A stretch of 64,000 nt of DNA, taken from NCBI RefSeq assembly GCF_042453785.1, contig NC_091672.1, positions 3,254,001 through 3,318,000 on the forward strand, in the 5' to 3' direction. The stretch is from Malus domestica. Taxonomy: Eukaryota; Streptophyta; Magnoliopsida; Rosales; Rosaceae. Position 1 is the first letter of the stretch, and every line of letters starts with the position of its first letter. The position numbers were made by a program, and so were the translations under genes. Under the pieces are notes generated by a model. It made no database searches. It was not told the DNA's origin and saw only the letters and a program-made list of their open reading frames with translations. Positions 9,502 through 26,300 of the stretch are shown here, piece after piece.

Positions 9502-9581
<80 letters not shown>
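9502..9581 (-). tRNA. tRNA-Leu (anticodon TAG)
   Basis: The minus strand folds as an 80-base cloverleaf. The acceptor stem pairs GACAGTT with AGCTGTC (one T-G pair), with discriminator A. The anticodon loop is TTTAGGC between CCAGA and TCTGG, giving anticodon TAG. The variable arm is long, as expected for Leu, and the T arm contains GGTTCAAATCC. No intron is present. A T run suitable for RNA polymerase III termination follows within about 15 bases. Confidence 0.95.
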
Positions 9582-13474: not shown

Positions 13475-13515
<41 letters not shown>

Positions 13516-13562
13516 GGAGGGTTTTGGTGAGTGAGAGCCGAGGGGAGAGAGAGAGAGAGAGA
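13470..13562. repeat. Two GA microsatellite runs upstream of ORL
   Basis: GA dinucleotide runs occur at about 13482-13512 and 13545-13562. On the coding (minus) strand they are CT runs just upstream of the ORL start codon, probably in the 5' UTR or core promoter, where pyrimidine-rich tracts are common in plants. Confidence 0.75.
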
Positions 13563-14256
13563 GGAATCTTTGGGAGGTTTGAGTGGGCATCTTGGTGGAA
13601 GACGGAGACAGAAGAGACGATGAGGCTAATGGGTTATTGCCACGTCACCACATGCTTCCCTTTCTCTCTCTTGACCGTTAATTGTTACTTGCGTTCGTGG
13701 CAATTACCGCGCCGCTTATGCATCATCTTGTATTTTCGTTACACTAAAAAATCAACCGAAAGAAAGACCAGCAGAAAAGTCCAAGTTAGCTAAAATGGTT
13801 CCTATAAAACAATACGGGTCGGTAACATTTTGGTAACGTATACAATATTTGAGTTACGAGTATGACTTCAATACTACATATCTTGGGTCGTAAGAGAGGA
13901 GATTTAGTGTTCATATTCAAATTCATAACGCATCTTGGGCCGCAAGAGAGGAGATCTAGTATCCGTATTCATTTAGCAGTTAAATTTGATTTTCACAACT
14001 ATTTAGATATTCTATTTTCAATCTCATTCATTCATTCATTCTCCTATCATTCAACAATACGTAGCATTTGAAGAAATTTCCGTGTGTTATTAGGTTTACA
14101 ACTCCTTAAAGAACCCTAATTGCATTTGCAACTCCTCACTATTTTCTCCCAAACATACTTAAAAACGAAGCTACATGACAATCATGGAATCATCTGCAGT
14201 TCATTGTTTTCTCCAACAACAAAAACAGTGACTTGCTTTGTAGTTTTGGTCTGAAA
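13563..14256. other. Intergenic region with a short direct repeat
   Basis: This is non-coding DNA. A direct repeat of about 35 bases (CATCTTGGG followed by GTAAGAGAGGAGAT or GCAAGAGAGGAGAT) occurs at about 13878 and again at about 13931. The 3' UTR of the oxidoreductase-hydrolase gene should lie at the right side. Confidence 0.45.
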
Positions 14257-17200
14257 CTACAAAAACAAAGACACCAGAAGAAAAAACAACATAAACAACA
14301 GCACAACAACAACAGGAGGAGAAAACCATGTTCCAAATTCCCCAAATCCTTCATACAGATCATCAGCTTCCCAATCCAATACCTCTTTTCTGAACCTCTT
14401 TCCCTTCCCACTCCTCCCGCTTTCAGCAAATCGTATGTGAGATAAAATGTGAGGAAAAACTTCCTTGTGAGAATCTTCTCCAATCAACAAATCTGAATGC
14501 CCGAAGCCCTCCACAACTACCCTTTCGTGATGGAATCCTGGCTGGTGCAACTTCATGTACTTATGAGCGAGGAAAGATGTGTGAGGAGTCACGAGGAGAG
14601 ACCGCCCTCCGGATATGTAAAGCGTTGGGAGTGCCATTCTTTCTGGATGGATCAAATATGAGTTGCTGCCGTTGCTGTCTACTATGAAACCGGAGTTGCA
14701 TATCTTTCTCAGGTGGGGAAATGCTGCCATGGGAAGTTTTGAAGAGCTTTGCTTGTTCAACCACTGGTGCATGGTGGGACTTATGTTTTTGTGCCAGAAT
14801 GTGTTTCCGAAGATTCCTGAGAAAACTTCACATTCGTTGCAGGTGCATCTCTCGTAGCGGGGTATGAAGCGGGCTATAAGTTTCAGGAGGCTGTGGCGTA
14901 AGCTGACGGTTGACGTCTCCAACAGAGGAAGCGTCTTATCATTTCCAAGTATGAACATTGATATCTGCATATTAAAAGGAACTTTTGAGGCTCTCGCAGG
15001 TAAAAATTAATGTGAGCTTGCTTTATGATTTAATAATTTTTGAATTACTACAAACTTTATTTAATTCCTTCCTCCCCTTGTTCATAATAATTAATAAGTT
15101 TCCTGCTTGGTTGTATTCCATCCTAAATCAATAGAGAGAGAGATGGGTTGGGGGGGGGGGAGCGAGAGTGAGAACTCACCGGCATCAGAGGAAGCCACAT
15201 TTTAACTCTGGACCAAGGACTAAGCTTGAAGAACATTGAAGAATTGGTGCATGAGAGAGAAGCAATACGGGTTGCAGAGACGTGACCTCCCATGACAGCT
15301 ATGTGTATGGCTAAGCCTCCGACACAGTGTGCAACTACATGCACCTTCACGCGCGGCCCATGCAACTCAACAATCTTATTAATTGCTGCAGAAAAAGTGA
15401 AGCAGGAAAACGCTCATTGACATACAATAGGATTAGTAAGAGTTAAGTACAATTACAGTAGGTGTATTTGGTCTTTTACCAGCAGCGATGTCAAATCTTG
15501 CAATATCTTCAATCGTAAAACTGTTTGACAAATTCAGAGGGTGCAATCGTGATTGCAGTAGCCATGTTTCATGCCCTCCTTCAAGCAGAGTTCTGACTAA
15601 ATCATTTGGCTCCGTTGGCAGCCAGTAACTCTCAGTGGAGTATCCATTAAGAAGAAGAACTGGATTTAGTTGCTCATTTCCTTTAAGTTGTGGCAAAATA
15701 TGGTGGCACTTCCATTGCCTACAACTGATATTGAATTCGTCTTCTGCATAATATATGGACAAGAAATTAGGAACTCTATAGCAGCAAGAAATGGACCAGA
15801 AACAGAAAACAAAAACATTTGCTACCTGTTTTTAATTCATGGAGAATGCCGCTCGGATAAGATTTAATTTGAAAATAGGATGAATCTAAATCCTTGTGGT
15901 TCCCTCGAGGTATCTGTAATATATAGGTTCTCAAGAGGGCCCCTAATAGATGGCAAAAAAACCTTCCCCTCTTGTTTCCTTCAAGGCTTATGAAACTCTT
16001 AAGAAGCTCCTTCATCGAAATGCTAAGCTCCCCTTTTAAAACAACCTTCTCATCCTTCGAGTTTTTCTCCGCAACTTTCACGAATGTCACATGCAGTGTT
16101 GTCATCTCCCTCCAAGCATATAATGCAGAAAGATAAGGATTCATTATCTTTCTTCCCTCGAGAATATATCTGCATCAAAATCGTTGTGAGAAAAATTAAA
16201 GTAAGAAAATTTATTGAACTTTCAAGTTTTATATACCTTGAACCAGTAGAAGCCCCGAGAAGAAGATGGTAATGCATATACTGTGTGTAAGGCGTTCTGC
16301 AATCTACTTCGCAAAAATTTACGTCCCCATCTAAGACATGTAAATCATCCTTCTCAAAGGCTCTAAGTTTCACATGCCCTCCAACTTTCCCTCTTAAAAG
16401 GGAATGGGCTTCTTGAGTACCCAACTTCTGCTCATTCGGTCCTTTCTGGTCTTGAGGGTTCATCTTCATTCTGAGATAAGCTGCGCACGGCATACCCCCA
16501 ACGTAACCTCTCATTGTTTCTTTGACCAAGACCTCTGATCTCTGACCGTTAACCATAGTCTTATCAGTGAAGGAATCCGGACCTTGGTTAGCAATTTTAG
16601 GAACAGATGCAAGACCTTCTCTGTACATTAGAGCATCCTGCACAAGGTTCTTGCTTATGTGCTCAGCTGCCGTCGCAATAGTAAGAGAAGGATTTATTCC
16701 AATAGAGCATGGGATCAAAGAAGCATCACATACATAGAGGCCGGGATGTACAGTGATAGGCGACACCGGATCAAAAACCTGCCCATTGGAGTTGCAAACA
16801 CCGTGTGAAGGATCTGAAGATGCATTGCACCCTCCTAAAAGATGAACTGATGCACTTCGGTATTTTGACATAAAGAGAATTCCTCCTAATTTCTTAGTGA
16901 GCTTTTGGAAAGCTGTAATTTTTCGTGGGAGAAGGGAATCATGAGGCGGGGTAAAGCATATTTTGTTCGTGCCCTTTTCCAATGTGATCTTACCATCACT
17001 CTCATCATATCCCAATGCAATAAGAACTATTGCTTGGGTTGCTTTACAACCTATGATATGCTTTATCTTGTCTATAATCCCATGAAGGAACCAGTATCCA
17101 GTAGGCCATCCGTAGGTTGTAATTCCTTTAAACAGCAGGTACGGATACGATGTTGGAAGTACAGCACTCTGTAACAATGAAGACTACATAAGAGGTTGAT

Positions 17201-19120
17201 GAATCCAAATCCATCAAACCAGAAAAAAAACATTTTTAAACTTATTTCTTCAGAGATTAACATTTATATACACGCATGCATACTTCATATATATATGTAA
17301 CTCATTTTCCACAAAAGCCAGATTACAGCTAGATTTTCCCACCAGATATATATATGATACATCGTTGATTACGTAAAAAATTAAAAGTCATTTGTGACCA
17401 AACCAATAGATTTACATGATTGAAAAACTGAAGTCAATTAAGTTTATAGAAGTTTCTGAACCTGTATTGTAAAGCCGAGCGAAGAAGTGTAAGAGGCAGA
17501 GATGGATGGCCCAGGCCTTTCTTCAAATGGTGTCTTAAACATTTGCTTTCTGTCTAATCCGTAACCATTCAGTGGTGCTGGGCTCCCAGCAAGATAAGCC
17601 ACAGTATTTCCATTGCAGCTGAATCCAGATCCAAGTGCTTCAGAAAGTTTTAGTCCTCTCATTCTTGACTGGTAGAGTATTTTAGTGGTGCCAAAAACTC
17701 CCGCTGCGAAAAACAAGTCTAGAAATTGTTAAGAGTCTTTGTGATTAAAATTTTCAGAAGATACCTAATTTGATTGTTTCTCACCTGATAGGATTACGAA
17801 ATCAGAGGTTATGTAATCAATCTCATTCAAGTAAATAAGCCATCTTCTATTTTTTCTACCGCTTTCTCCTTTGTATTGGAAGTTTTCATGCACGTTTCGA
17901 ACCACATACTGTACTTGACATTCTGTTTTAACTATGCAGCCTGCCTGCTTCACAAGAAACACTGGTTTTAGTGGAGAAGGTACAGTTAAAACTTAAACAC
18001 GAACATCTCTTACATCCTAAAAAGGTCGTACCCAGTGCACAAGGCTCCCGCTTTACGCAGGGTCTGGGAGAGGTGAATGTCGGCTAACCTTACCCCCATT
18101 TATGGAGAGGTTGCTCCCAAATCTCTTACATACTAATGGATATTTTTTTTTTTTTTTTTTTTTTACAAACTTCATTGACGTATTAGATAACGTAAGACAT
18201 GCCTGGATTGCTGAACGCAGATAATTTTTGTCAGTAGAACTTTTGGCATTAAAAGGACATCCAGAAAGACAGTTTCCACAGGCTAAGCAGCTACCCATTG
18301 CATCATTTTGTGGTTCTTCAAGGTCAAAATTCATGCTTAGCTTCACCGAAGTCTCAAAAGCTTCTTCAATCTCTCCAATAGCAACCTCTTCCAAGACTTT
18401 TGCAGCAGGAAACTTGACAGGAATGCTTTGTGCTTTCAGCATGGCTGCTGCAGAAGCTTCACAGTTATCCCAATTCCTTTCCCAATCCTTTGGCCATTTT
18501 GGATTTCGTCTAGCACGAGCTGGTGCTGGAACCAGAACTCCTGCATTCACTAGTGAACCCCCACCAAGTCCACACGCCATAGCTGCTAGAGAATCATTCT
18601 GCTCATATACCTAGACTTTCATCATAACAGATGTATATTACACCTTGCCCCGATATGAATGGTTACGGAAAAACTGTATATGTCGCTAAATTATAGTAAA
18701 AAGTAAAAAAAACTGGTATATATACACAATAGTAAGCAAAAGTGACATCACAAAACAAAGTACATACAATATCCTGCGATTGACATGGTTCAAAACAAAC
18801 AACAAAATACAGAATCGCGGCAGATATTGCCCGAGAAAAAAAGAGGAAGAGAGAATAACCTGGAACAAAGCATCTTTTGGTCCAAAGCTAATGCCTAGGT
18901 TCTGGTTCTCCATCCTCACAGCAGAAAATATCTTCGAGCTGTCAGTTGGAAAGTCCTTAGATTCCCATCTCCGGCCTTTCTCAACTAGACACACCCTTAC
19001 CCCTGCCATAGACAACCGACAAGCAGCAACAGAACCGCCATAGCCAGACCCCACAACAACTGCATCATAACCATCTTCTTGTCCATAACCAAAACTAACT
19101 TCCGATTCTTGCTCCTCCAT
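14257..19120 (-). CDS. GMC-type FAD oxidoreductase fused to alpha/beta hydrolase, C-terminal anchor
   Basis: Exons on the minus strand: 19120-18860, 18610-18203, 17944-17785, 17703-17462, 17168-16237, 16169-15826, 15743-15480, 15385-15180 and 14964-14257. They join in frame to 1174 residues. Intron 2 has a GC donor (CAG|GCATGT); the others are GT-AG. The N-terminal half is a cholesterol-oxidase-like GMC/FAD protein: dinucleotide fold VVGSGYGGSVAA (about 22-33), GLGGGSLVNAG (101-111), and a C-terminal active-site region with SVHLLGG (His466) and CSIGINPSLT (Asn516). Between them is CLACGNCLSGCP (Cys195, 198, 201, 205), the spacing of a ferredoxin 4Fe-4S site. A beta-rich linker (about 600-780) leads to a hydrolase domain. 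This has LLLNGYSTESYW, a nucleophile elbow AHCVGG with Cys891 in place of Ser, and His1095 in GFGHSD. The tail (1157-1174) is strongly hydrophobic and may anchor the protein. Substrate unknown; a sterol or other lipid is a guess. Introns carry a SINE. Confidence 0.88.
18020..18120 (-). mobile_element. Au-like / angiosperm-wide SINE copy
   Basis: On the minus strand it ends GTGCACTGGGTACGACC followed by T, a 3' end found in widespread plant SINEs of the Au type (family name from memory). An imperfect TSD of about 15 bases, ATCTCTTACAT(C/A)CTAA, flanks it at about 18005-18019 and 18121-18135. It sits in intron 2 of the fusion gene, in the same orientation. A shorter copy lies at 26231-26290. 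Confidence 0.75.
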
Positions 19121-19727: not shown

Positions 19728-20507
19728 TTACAGTCTAGCGATTTGGACCGACTTCTGAAGGGCCTGCATAAGATTTCTCATGATCCTTGGTTCACCAGGA
19801 GGTGTCTTGTCCTTCAAGGGTCCGCTTCTGACAGCTCGGAAAATAGGGCCAGAGCCGTCACTTGGTGGGAAAACCAAGCAGTCTATGTACACAGGGACCT
19901 CAACCTCCGCATTCCCGATTGTAACAAACCCCAATCTAGTCCCACCTGCAATTTTGTCTACCTGTTCCATTGCAATGTACAAGAAAACATTCAGTCCATT
20001 GCTAGGGTCTCAGTGCCATTTTCATAATGTATGCCAATGTGTCCATGCAACCGGAACCTTAAACATGGAAGTCAACATGGCTAAGGGAATATAAGTCAAA
20101 TAAACTGATTTCCGCATACTCATTTTTCGTTTATTTCTGACATATTGGATTGGATAAATTTGTGATTTTTGTGAATCATCTTTATAAATTGGGTGTTATA
20201 AACATAATGGAATTTTATTTTTATTCAAGTTTATTGCATATAGCGATACCTCCAACGCAACACCTAATACGACTTCAGACTTTGAATAAAATAAAGGAAA
20301 ATGAAGAAACATAAATAAACAGAAAAAAAAAAAGAATTGAAGTGAACAATATATTATGTACCTTCAAAGGCATATCAAGAGGCAGGTTGGCTCCTTGGCA
20401 GAGACTATTAGCCCACTGTTGAACAAAACGCAGCGTTTAGCACATTGGACCAGAAAAATGGGAAAATACAGAAATTTTAAAAACGCTAGAAGGAGGGTTC
20501 GAACCTC

Positions 20508-20540
<33 letters not shown>

Positions 20541-20950
20541 AGCTGAGCTATTCCAGCTTTGTTGTTAGAGTATGCACTTTAATGTTTAAATATACTTTAT
20601 ATTACCTGGAATAGTAGAATTTGGAATCTGGGAAGATCGGTATCCGAGGGCAATTTCATGGTCCCGAGCAAGACGCCGTCTTCGGCGTCGTCCGAAGGGA
20701 TAAGGCTGTCCTTTTCCTGAGACGACGCCTTGGCCACCGCCGTTTGATTTCGGTGGCGGTAGTGACGGCCGGAATGCAAATTAAGGTTAGGAAAGAAGCA
20801 GCAGCTGGTGGCGGTGGTGGATACTAGTGGACAGGAAGCAGCCAGCGACGGAGGAGGAGGGGAGAGTAGCACGTGGGAACTGACACGTGGGGAGTGGACG
20901 CGGCGGAGCGAGCTCATCACTCCTCCCGCCACAGCGACAGAAATGGGCAT
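19728..20950 (-). CDS. Conserved plant protein, probably plastid-targeted
   Basis: Exons on the minus strand: 20950-20606, 20415-20362 and 19961-19728, with GT-AG introns, giving 210 residues. The first about 75 residues are Ser/Arg/Pro-rich with few acids, as in a chloroplast transit peptide. The conserved core follows: LPSDTDLPRFQILLFQWANSL, then VDKIAGGTRLGFVTIG and VPVYIDCLVFPPSDG, ending PRIMRNLMQALQKSVQIARL. I recognise this as a conserved plant family of unknown function (an Arabidopsis relative may be At1g63610, from memory). A second possible start is the ATG of MSSLRRVHSPR, 11 codons in. Intron 1 holds a complete tRNA-Asn gene on the same strand. Confidence 0.8.
20484..20557 (-). 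tRNA. tRNA-Asn (anticodon GTT)
   Basis: The minus strand folds as a cloverleaf. The acceptor stem pairs GCTGGAA with TTCTAGC (one G-T pair), with discriminator G. The A box is TAGCTCAGCTGG, the anticodon loop is CTGTTAA (GTT) and the T arm is GGTTCGAACCT. No intron is present. A TTTTT terminator follows almost immediately. The whole gene lies in intron 1 of the host protein gene, same strand. Confidence 0.95.
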
Positions 20951-23315: not shown

Positions 23316-26300
23316 CTAAGCCGGGGAGCAAGATTCGAGCTTAGGGAGGAGACTTCGCCAAGCGTCTGCAATACTTTTTGCCAGGCGTGCCTGTCCCTTG
23401 GCAAACTCATGGAAAGCAACCCCCATGTCCGTTGTTTTTTGTTCTTGAAAGTGAACTATCTCTTCATTCATCCGTCGCACTATCGTTTCAAATCTTCTGG
23501 TTGCTTCCTCACCCTCAGCCTTCAACTGCATCACAAAACCAATCTTAGTCAAATAGTGAAGATGCCACCTAACATGTGTAAACCATATACGATTGCATCA
23601 GCTGACTTGCCTCCTTGTACTCGTGCTCAGCTTCGCCCACCCTGTCCGATCTGGTCAACATGAGTTTGTCACTGCAAACCAATCAACACTTATTAGGCCA
23701 ATCAACAATTAAAGACAAAATGAGCGCCAGAGAGTATTTATATCAAAATGGTGAGTGGAATCCAACATTAGTTGAATCAAATGGTCCCCATCATGCTTTT
23801 TCACAAATCAATTTTTTTCTCCTTAAACTTTTATTTTTTTTATTAACTAGAAACCTAAATATGATCACAGGTGCTACTTGTCTGTGTTTTCAGTATACAA
23901 GAGGCTAGCGTAACGGAAAATCCAGACACGCAGAGAAACATAAAACAGTTGGCCAGATGCATACAGATTTATCTCCTTCAACTTAATTGTTTCGGCAAGT
24001 TCACACTGTTGCCTGAAGGCATTTGCTCTCTCAGCTATTGTCGCCTGTTTCAACACACATAAGTAAAAGAATCAGCTTTTATTTTATGACAAATGAAGAC
24101 TACCAGAAGGCCACAATCAATGAGAAAACTTTAACCAAGGGCAATTCCAGGAAGAGCTTCTATTACATATGAACCCAGAATGGTAGGAAACAAATTCCAT
24201 GAGTCCAATGCAGAATGGGAAGGATAAATATTCAAATAATAATTTGTGTCCATGAATTTAGAAGCTAAAGTTATATCCATCGCAAAAAGAGAAGAATGCA
24301 AGTGTAAAGAGTATAATCTAAAGACATGTATCAAGTCAAACACTTCTCACCTTAATAGATTGCACGGCACGGACATAATCTTTCAACGGTTCTTCAAAAT
24401 TCATTAACAGTTGTTGGGCCTACAAAGAGACGAAAAGATATGGTACCACCATAACATATAATGATAAGCTCTTATACAAAATGGAAAACAAAAGGAATGC
24501 ATGCAAAGAAGAACAAGCAAACACACCATAGACACTAGAATGCCAATGATATATATCGAATTCTCAATTCAAGCCTACCTCCTTTTGCAGCCTAATTGAT
24601 AATGTCTCTGACTTCGCCCCAAGCTCGGTAAAGGCCTTTCCAAGAGCATTACCTTCGGAAGCTCCTAGGAGCTTGGCTGCTTTCCCAAAATCTGCTAGAG
24701 ACTGTCCCAGCTCTGCATAAATATAGTTATAAAGAATCACATTCTAACCACATTCAGAATTCAGAATAAGGAAATGCAGCCATAAGGCCCCTACTAGAGA
24801 AATTCAAAAGAAAAAGGTAAAGAAAGAACATTGAGCCTTCAAATCGTCATTACCTCTGTGCCTCTTGACAAGACGGTATGCATGCTTCTGGGCTTCAGCC
24901 AAGTGGTTTTCAAGCTCAAAGATGTAGTGTTTCAACTTCTCATATTCAGGATTTGACTCTTCCACCGGCTTTTCCTTTCCGAGAACAACATCGCTCACTT
25001 TAGATTGTACATCCTGTTAAATACAGAACTGCTGTTATTGTACAACCAGATCAACTCTCAAAAAGGAAAGATACTAGTTTAAGTGACCTATTTAGTTCAA
25101 CAAATACAATAAATGCGGAAGACATCATGCAGCGGAAAGGATTGCCTGTTATGTTTGCACTTGACAATACACTAAAGCATTTAAACAAACAAAACCAGGA
25201 AGGAAAAATAAACTTGAAGGACTTCAGAAAACTTCAACTTATTAATAAGAATATTAATTGTCGAATTGCAATTGAATTATGTGGCATTCAAGACAGACAT
25301 TGGAAGGAGATCTCTTCCTCAAATATTCTCCTACATTTATTTCCATGTGATACACGTTCCATTTTCTATTTGGCTAGACAATCCAGAACGCAGATCATTA
25401 ACCTCATAATGAAAATAGATTATAAACAACTTTTCCAGGGTTGAGAATAATTGTTAGTGTGCACTATTTTTCACACTGAATACAGTGACAATTTTCTACA
25501 GGTTTCCAGTACCTGCATAACAGGATTTAACTGTTCAACCTTCCCACTACAGATTATATATCACAGAGACGGAAGGATAAGCAGAACAAGGTACCGATCA
25601 TTTCTATTTCATGAAAAATGCCTTTTTAGGGCAATGAAATATCCCATGGAAACAGTTAGTCTTAAAAACACTATGCAGAATCAAAGTTACCTTGAAGATT
25701 TGCATCAAATCTGCTGGCTTCTTCTTAAAGATACCAGTCTCGTGAAACCTTAACCTTTCCATTGTCTGAAAAAAGCATATAAACACGTCAACTATTCTAA
25801 AGTCCAACAGAGGTGCCTGATAAGTTATTGACTTTCATAGTAGTGACATGAGAATAACTCTGTGACTCAAGGCATCACTTTAGAAGCACCACCTCTTCAT
25901 CTGCTTGTAAGAAGGTTCTCAGATCCTCACTTTGCTGAAGTTCATGATGTGAAGCTATCCGATTAACAAATACATCCAATGCTTGACGCCTCATCTCAAT
26001 AAATTCAGCACTGAAACGGAACTTTTCTGCATTAAGGACTAAAGTTAGTCACAGTGATAGTTGTTTATTTGGAGTGATTCCAAATTCCAATTCTTGGTGC
26101 AAGGCCAAGTGTGCTGGGCCCCTGGAGGAGTCTAGTTTATCTTTTATTTTCGTTTGGTTTTAAGTTTTCTGTGTTTTCACTTCCGCTAACCACTCTAATT
26201 TCCGCTACCGAATTCTATCCTACACACCAAAAAAGGTCGTACCCAGTGCACAAGGCTCCCGCTTTACGCAGGGTCTGGGAGAGGTGAATGTATCCTACAC

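Follow-up and report, generated by a model that had tools for sequence, protein, structure and literature searches.

Does the nine-exon locus at positions 14257–19120 of an apple (Malus domestica) sequence encode one enzyme or two adjacent ones, and what would be the function of a chain that joins a flavin oxidoreductase to a hydrolase fold? The locus lies in a window of 64,000 nucleotides (positions 3,254,001 to 3,318,000 of NC_091672.1, to which coordinates refer unless a locus is named) from a genome of 651 Mb in 19 contigs. Our preferred reading, to which we give a probability of roughly 0.45, is that one intact gene here encodes a lipid enzyme of three domains, anchored to a membrane, in which a predicted iron-sulphur (Fe-S) flavo-dehydrogenase is combined with a domain that would form an acyl-enzyme on a cysteine.

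Structure and conservation of the gene

The coding model on the minus strand runs in frame from 19120 to 14257 through nine exons and gives 1174 residues and one terminal stop, and in its limits, exon number and length it agrees exactly with a first-pass annotation of this DNA, which had proposed a GMC oxidoreductase fused to an alpha/beta hydrolase with a hydrophobic tail. Introns 1 and 3–8 are GT-AG and intron 2 (18202–17945) is GC-AG (donor CAG/GCATGT). The gene is intact as claimed, with no internal stop and with all splice sites usable, one GC-AG pair among them. That the splice model merged two adjacent genes is scarcely credible: the exon junctions are the same in a paralog, intron 5 (16236–16170), close to the suspected boundary near 16200, falls inside a domain, and bacteria encode the whole domain order in single open reading frames. 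Because of this last point, the locus is best read, in line with the first-pass annotation, as one fused gene, not two.

The paralog, on contig C10 (locus L103, 773–8124), has nine exons in the same phases, encodes 1191 residues with no internal stop and has the GC donor of intron 2 in common with the window gene. The two proteins are 74% identical, with 0.156 nonsynonymous (dN) and 0.644 synonymous (dS) substitutions per site. For this pair, dN/dS was lowest in the hydrolase part (0.158, bootstrap 0.11–0.22), followed by the GMC part (0.224, 0.18–0.28), the linker with the middle domain (0.344, 0.23–0.50) and the C-terminal tail (0.543); both the GMC and the hydrolase halves are under purifying selection. 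Decayed pieces were also found on C14 (L104), with 86–92% DNA identity to the window copy, and, resembling the C10 copy, on C5 (L105, 90%) and C9 (L106, 81–98%). Such remnants would be expected if a later genome doubling had been followed by loss.

Flavin half and its cysteine motif

The apple protein scored above the Pfam cut-offs for both GMC profiles (PF00732, 45.0 bits against 23; PF05199, 40.8 against 24.6), and its best match in the PDB was 1coy (E 4.9e-18), which bears out the description of this half as a cholesterol-oxidase-like domain binding flavin adenine dinucleotide (FAD). Cholesterol oxidase (1B4V, 1COY) shares with the apple protein the GMC fold and the equivalents of His447 and Asn485, but its active-site set is incomplete in apple, where Glu361 is replaced by Gln357; it also lacks the cysteine motif described below and, at ~500 residues, has no barrel, hydrolase half or tail. 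Moreover, the NCBIfam cholesterol oxidase equivalog NF058674 was not reached (137.7 bits against a cut-off of 850).

The first-pass annotation had overlooked a ferredoxin-like cysteine motif in this half, in which Cys198, Cys201 and Cys205 are each conserved in 23/23 bacterial fused rows and Cys195 in 22/23. The large subunit of fructose dehydrogenase is known to carry an Fe-S cluster. In the alpha subunit of the Burkholderia FAD glucose dehydrogenase, the ligands of a 3Fe-4S cluster are Cys 212, 218 and 222 (PMC6719666), and Cys195, 201 and 205 share the C-x5-C-x3-C of these ligands when compared by spacing and position only. Relative to these two dehydrogenases the apple protein has an extra cysteine, Cys198, as well as the fused barrel and lipase-like half. 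The flavin half is probably a dehydrogenase.

Lipase-like half and its active site

Apple scores for the Pfam Abhydrolase profiles (24.7 and 20.6 bits) fell below the cut-offs of 26.3 and 25.8, whereas a bacterial relative (L023) reached 39.9, above 25.8. A profile built from five bacterial domains matched four distinct solved sequences, namely two gastric lipases (E 3.6e-11 and 5.7e-10), lysosomal acid lipase (4e-10) and a putative esterase (0.0012). The proposal of an alpha/beta-hydrolase fold in the second half is supported. The acid lipases are related in sequence across the domain and share the motif of the catalytic His, but they have Ser and Asp where the fusion has Cys and either Asn (bacteria) or Ser (plant). 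The nucleophile is Cys, always as H-C-x-G, in 26/26 bacterial domains and in both plant copies; the position of the lipase Asp is Asn in all 26 bacterial domains and Ser in both plant copies, and the catalytic His is retained in 26/26 bacterial domains. The apple protein accordingly lacks a Ser-His-Asp triad and has Cys891, His1095 and Ser1061 at the aligned positions. A Cys-His-Asn set resembles that of papain, but here it is placed on a different fold. Since the nucleophile is Cys and the acid residue is lost, ordinary lipase chemistry is doubtful, and the view of this half as a plain hydrolase is not borne out.

Middle domain and C-terminal tail

The two-domain picture of the first-pass annotation missed a third domain, a small beta-barrel, between the halves. 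Its bacterial counterpart, confidently modelled alone (214 residues, predicted local distance difference test score 89), forms a small antiparallel barrel with a helical end, and the domain has no clear solved relative.

The hydrophobic C-terminal tail was confirmed by hydropathy in both paralogs. The highest mean over 19 residues (3.07) begins at residue 1156, against a next highest value elsewhere of 1.73, and each paralog has a single hydrophobic segment in its last ~30 residues, as tail-anchored proteins do. Both plant copies extend ~56 residues past the hydrolase domain, with a shared EGFGEFGTWFSP stretch and ~20 hydrophobic residues at the end. No N-terminal signal was seen by eye, and the FAD-binding domain begins at about residue 18; because of this and the hydrophobic end, the plant protein looks tail-anchored, with its catalytic part in the cytosol. 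The tail itself is a plant addition, because 21 of the 22 complete bacterial chains stop 1–14 residues beyond the hydrolase domain, while the remaining one, from Ensifer, runs 628 residues further with other domains.

Bacterial relatives and origin of the fusion

A genome scan confirmed 101 relatives, of which 80 loci were kept, and tblastn against plasmids returned 47 records, four covering at least 80% of the query. The survey of bacteria for the fusion suggested by the first-pass annotation was positive: in a profile search of the loci then in the set, 24 bacterial rows had the GMC, middle and hydrolase domains in this order within a single reading frame (one of them, L108, duplicates a locus already counted, and another, L043, is cut by a contig end). 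Three bacterial single-frame fusions, WP_002741297.1 (Leptospira), WP_063474201.1 (Rhizobium) and WP_149201188.1 (Azospirillum), are annotated only as ‘alpha/beta fold hydrolase’ and are about 24–27% identical to the apple protein (26–27% in a six-row alignment), with which they share the domain order, the FAD and cysteine motifs, the HCxG nucleophile and the His. They differ from the plant form in having Glu, Asn and Asn in place of Gln357, Ser1061 and Pro206, and in ending 1–5 residues past the hydrolase domain, without a tail anchor. The outer domains have known relatives; what is new in the plant form is the tail, together with two changes in the active sites. In the papers listed by literature searches, no function was described for the bacterial domain combination, and no account of the plant gene was found in them either.

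Split forms also occur. Aquiflexum and Cyclobacterium have the GMC and middle domains together and a separate hydrolase gene ~5 kb away, and the pieces are separate but close by in Corallococcus and in the Acidobacteriota genome G199. In a GMC tree of 63 rows, the plant protein falls in a 37-row clade (support 100/99) that also takes in some stand-alone rows and every one of the 22 bacterial fused rows in the tree, as sister to the bacterial rows of that clade (97/82) and outside the actinobacterial stand-alone enzymes. Judging from this flavin-half tree, the fusion is most likely old and was inherited by plant and bacteria as one unit. In the hydrolase tree the plant sits on a very long branch, mainly among split forms, so that an identical history of the two halves, though likely, is not proven. 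Separately, a second GMC gene adjoins the first in five loci (L018, L037, L046, L049 and L109).

Proposed mechanism and alternatives

In the mechanism that we propose, the C-terminal tail would keep the enzyme on a membrane with its catalytic part in the cytosol, and the FAD half, with His466 and Asn516 in its active site, would oxidise a bulky lipid by taking a hydride from one of its alcohol groups. From the spacing of the putative ligands, electrons would pass from the flavin, by way of an Fe-S cluster on Cys195, 198, 201 and 205, to a protein acceptor and not to oxygen alone. The lipase-like half would form an acyl-enzyme on Cys891 with His1095, so that an acyl group of the same lipid might be cut or transferred before or after oxidation, and the middle barrel may serve as a lipid-holding spacer. 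The likeliest substrate is a membrane lipid with a hydroxyl group, or an ester of such a lipid.

More tentatively, and rather less probably than the reading above, the proteins could represent a distinct GMC class: a tail-anchored Fe-S flavo-dehydrogenase with an acyl-enzyme domain, using Cys-His-Asn in bacteria or Cys-His-Ser in the plant on an acid-lipase-like fold, in which acyl removal or transfer would be coupled to the oxidation of the lipid concerned, electrons passing to a membrane carrier. In plants this would be an Fe-S flavoenzyme of lipid metabolism so far unrecognised as such. The labels cholesterol oxidase and hydrolase are both probably misleading. Should both the Fe-S cluster and the Cys acyl-enzyme prove real, plants would possess a membrane-bound lipid dehydrogenase of a type that has until now been known from the oxidation of sugars by bacteria, and its chain would also bear a second catalytic site; the residues named here make the question directly testable.

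A steryl-ester processing oxidase is an unlikely alternative. Its lipase-like half would free the sterol and its flavin half would oxidise the 3-hydroxyl with oxygen, giving hydrogen peroxide, the cysteines being structural. This would suit the solved relatives nearest in sequence (cholesterol oxidase for one half; gastric lipase or lysosomal acid lipase/cholesteryl ester hydrolase for the other), the first rank of cholesterol oxidase with Foldseek and the retained equivalents of His447 and Asn485, but not the shortfall against the NCBIfam cholesterol oxidase model, the plant Gln at the Glu361 equivalent, the Cys in place of the Ser nucleophile or the absence of the cysteine motif, by alignment, from the solved Streptomyces cholesterol oxidase. 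A further point against it is that most bacteria with the fusion are not known as sterol producers.

We rate it similarly improbable that the lipase-like half is a PhaC-like acyltransferase or thioesterase, which would load or move an acyl group on the alcohol before this is oxidised by the flavin half. PhaC polyester synthases have a Cys nucleophile on an alpha/beta-hydrolase fold, and the invariant Cys of the bacterial rows and both plant copies would agree with this; in addition, PhaC and PhaE genes lie ~6 kb from the fusion in the Rhizobium locus, and the class III PhaC model TIGR01836 weakly matches the Leptospira relative. That match, however, scored 15.3 bits, far under the cut-off of 365.3, and TIGR01836 was not among the best 25 of 58 families for apple. 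Furthermore, the acid residue of PhaC is Asp, where the fusion has Asn or Ser, and in sequence the domain is closer to the acid lipases.

The plant hydrolase half might instead have lost catalysis and now serve the flavin half as a module for lipid binding or docking, since two of the three triad positions are altered, from Ser to Cys and from Asp to Ser; this is quite improbable, given that its dN/dS is the lowest of all parts and that Cys and His are retained from bacteria to plant. Compared with these alternatives, we prefer the membrane-anchored lipid dehydrogenase with a Cys acyl-enzyme.

Neighbouring genes in bacteria

A metallophosphoesterase-like gene lies within 2.5 kb of the fused gene in 13/19 loci. 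Four types of these neighbours served as queries: two scored above the Pfam Metallophos cut-off, the L021 type fell slightly short (19.5 against 21.5) but carries this annotation and has an L032 relative that slightly exceeds the cut-off, and the L017 type, with a weak match only, was assigned by motifs seen by eye. In a 14th locus (Ensifer L022, 5821–11547) the fused 1908-residue chain itself includes a PhoD-like phosphatase domain, while neither such a neighbour nor such a domain was found in the other 5/19 (L018, L019, L026, L027 and L029). A gene for a di-haem cytochrome c lies close to the fusion in six of the 19 loci, which all come from Pseudomonas or Bryobacterales (L023, 10412–12271; similar in L024, L025, L028, L038 and L042). 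These cytochromes have a hydrophobic N-terminal part (by eye) and are distantly like rubber oxygenases, and the two that were scanned scored 191.4 and 201.6 for CytoC_perox (cut-off 150), with two CxxCH motifs. In two Bacteroidota loci the nearby genes include one for a patatin phospholipase and one that is acetoacetate-decarboxylase-like. The bacterial neighbours fit with lipid work and, in some lineages, a haem electron outlet.

Coordinates of features and other observations

Table 1. Features of the fused gene (window positions).
Feature	Position	Strand	Residues or basis
Exon 1	18860..19120	-	residues 1-87; ATG at 19120; FAD-binding start
Exon 2	18203..18610	-	residues 88-223; GC donor next
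Exon 3	17785..17944	-	splice model
Exon 4	17462..17703	-	splice model
Exon 5	16237..17168	-	GMC half ends, middle domain begins
Exon 6	15826..16169	-	remainder of middle domain
Exon 7	15480..15743	-	lipase-like domain begins
Exon 8	15180..15385	-	nucleophile elbow
Exon 9	14257..14964	-	remainder of lipase-like domain, tail anchor, stop
GSGYGG, FAD dinucleotide-binding motif	19034..19051	-	residues 24-29; invariant in six-row alignment
CLACGNCLSGC, predicted Fe-S ligands	18257..18289	-	residues 195-205; conservation and ligand spacing
Gln357	17462..17464	-	aligned with cholesterol oxidase Glu361; Glu in bacterial relatives
His466	16842..16844	-	aligned with cholesterol oxidase active-site His447
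Asn516	16692..16694	-	aligned with cholesterol oxidase Asn485
Middle domain, small beta-barrel	15929..16574	-	residues 556-748; profile range; contains intron 5
Alpha/beta-hydrolase-fold domain	14428..15693	-	residues 800-1118; introns included
Cys891, nucleophile position	15324..15326	-	bacterial Cys aligned to lipase Ser
Ser1061, acid position	14599..14601	-	bacterial rows have Asn, gastric lipase has Asp
His1095, catalytic His position	14497..14499	-	His in 26/26 bacterial rows
C-terminal hydrophobic tail	14260..14328	-	~residues 1152-1174; hydropathy

Elsewhere in the window, a GA-rich simple repeat (13476–13570, by eye) lies ~700 bases past the 3' end of the gene, and ARAGORN reported two tRNA-Asn genes and one tRNA-Leu gene, at 20484–20557 (minus strand), 26026–26120 (plus strand) and 9502–9581 (minus strand).
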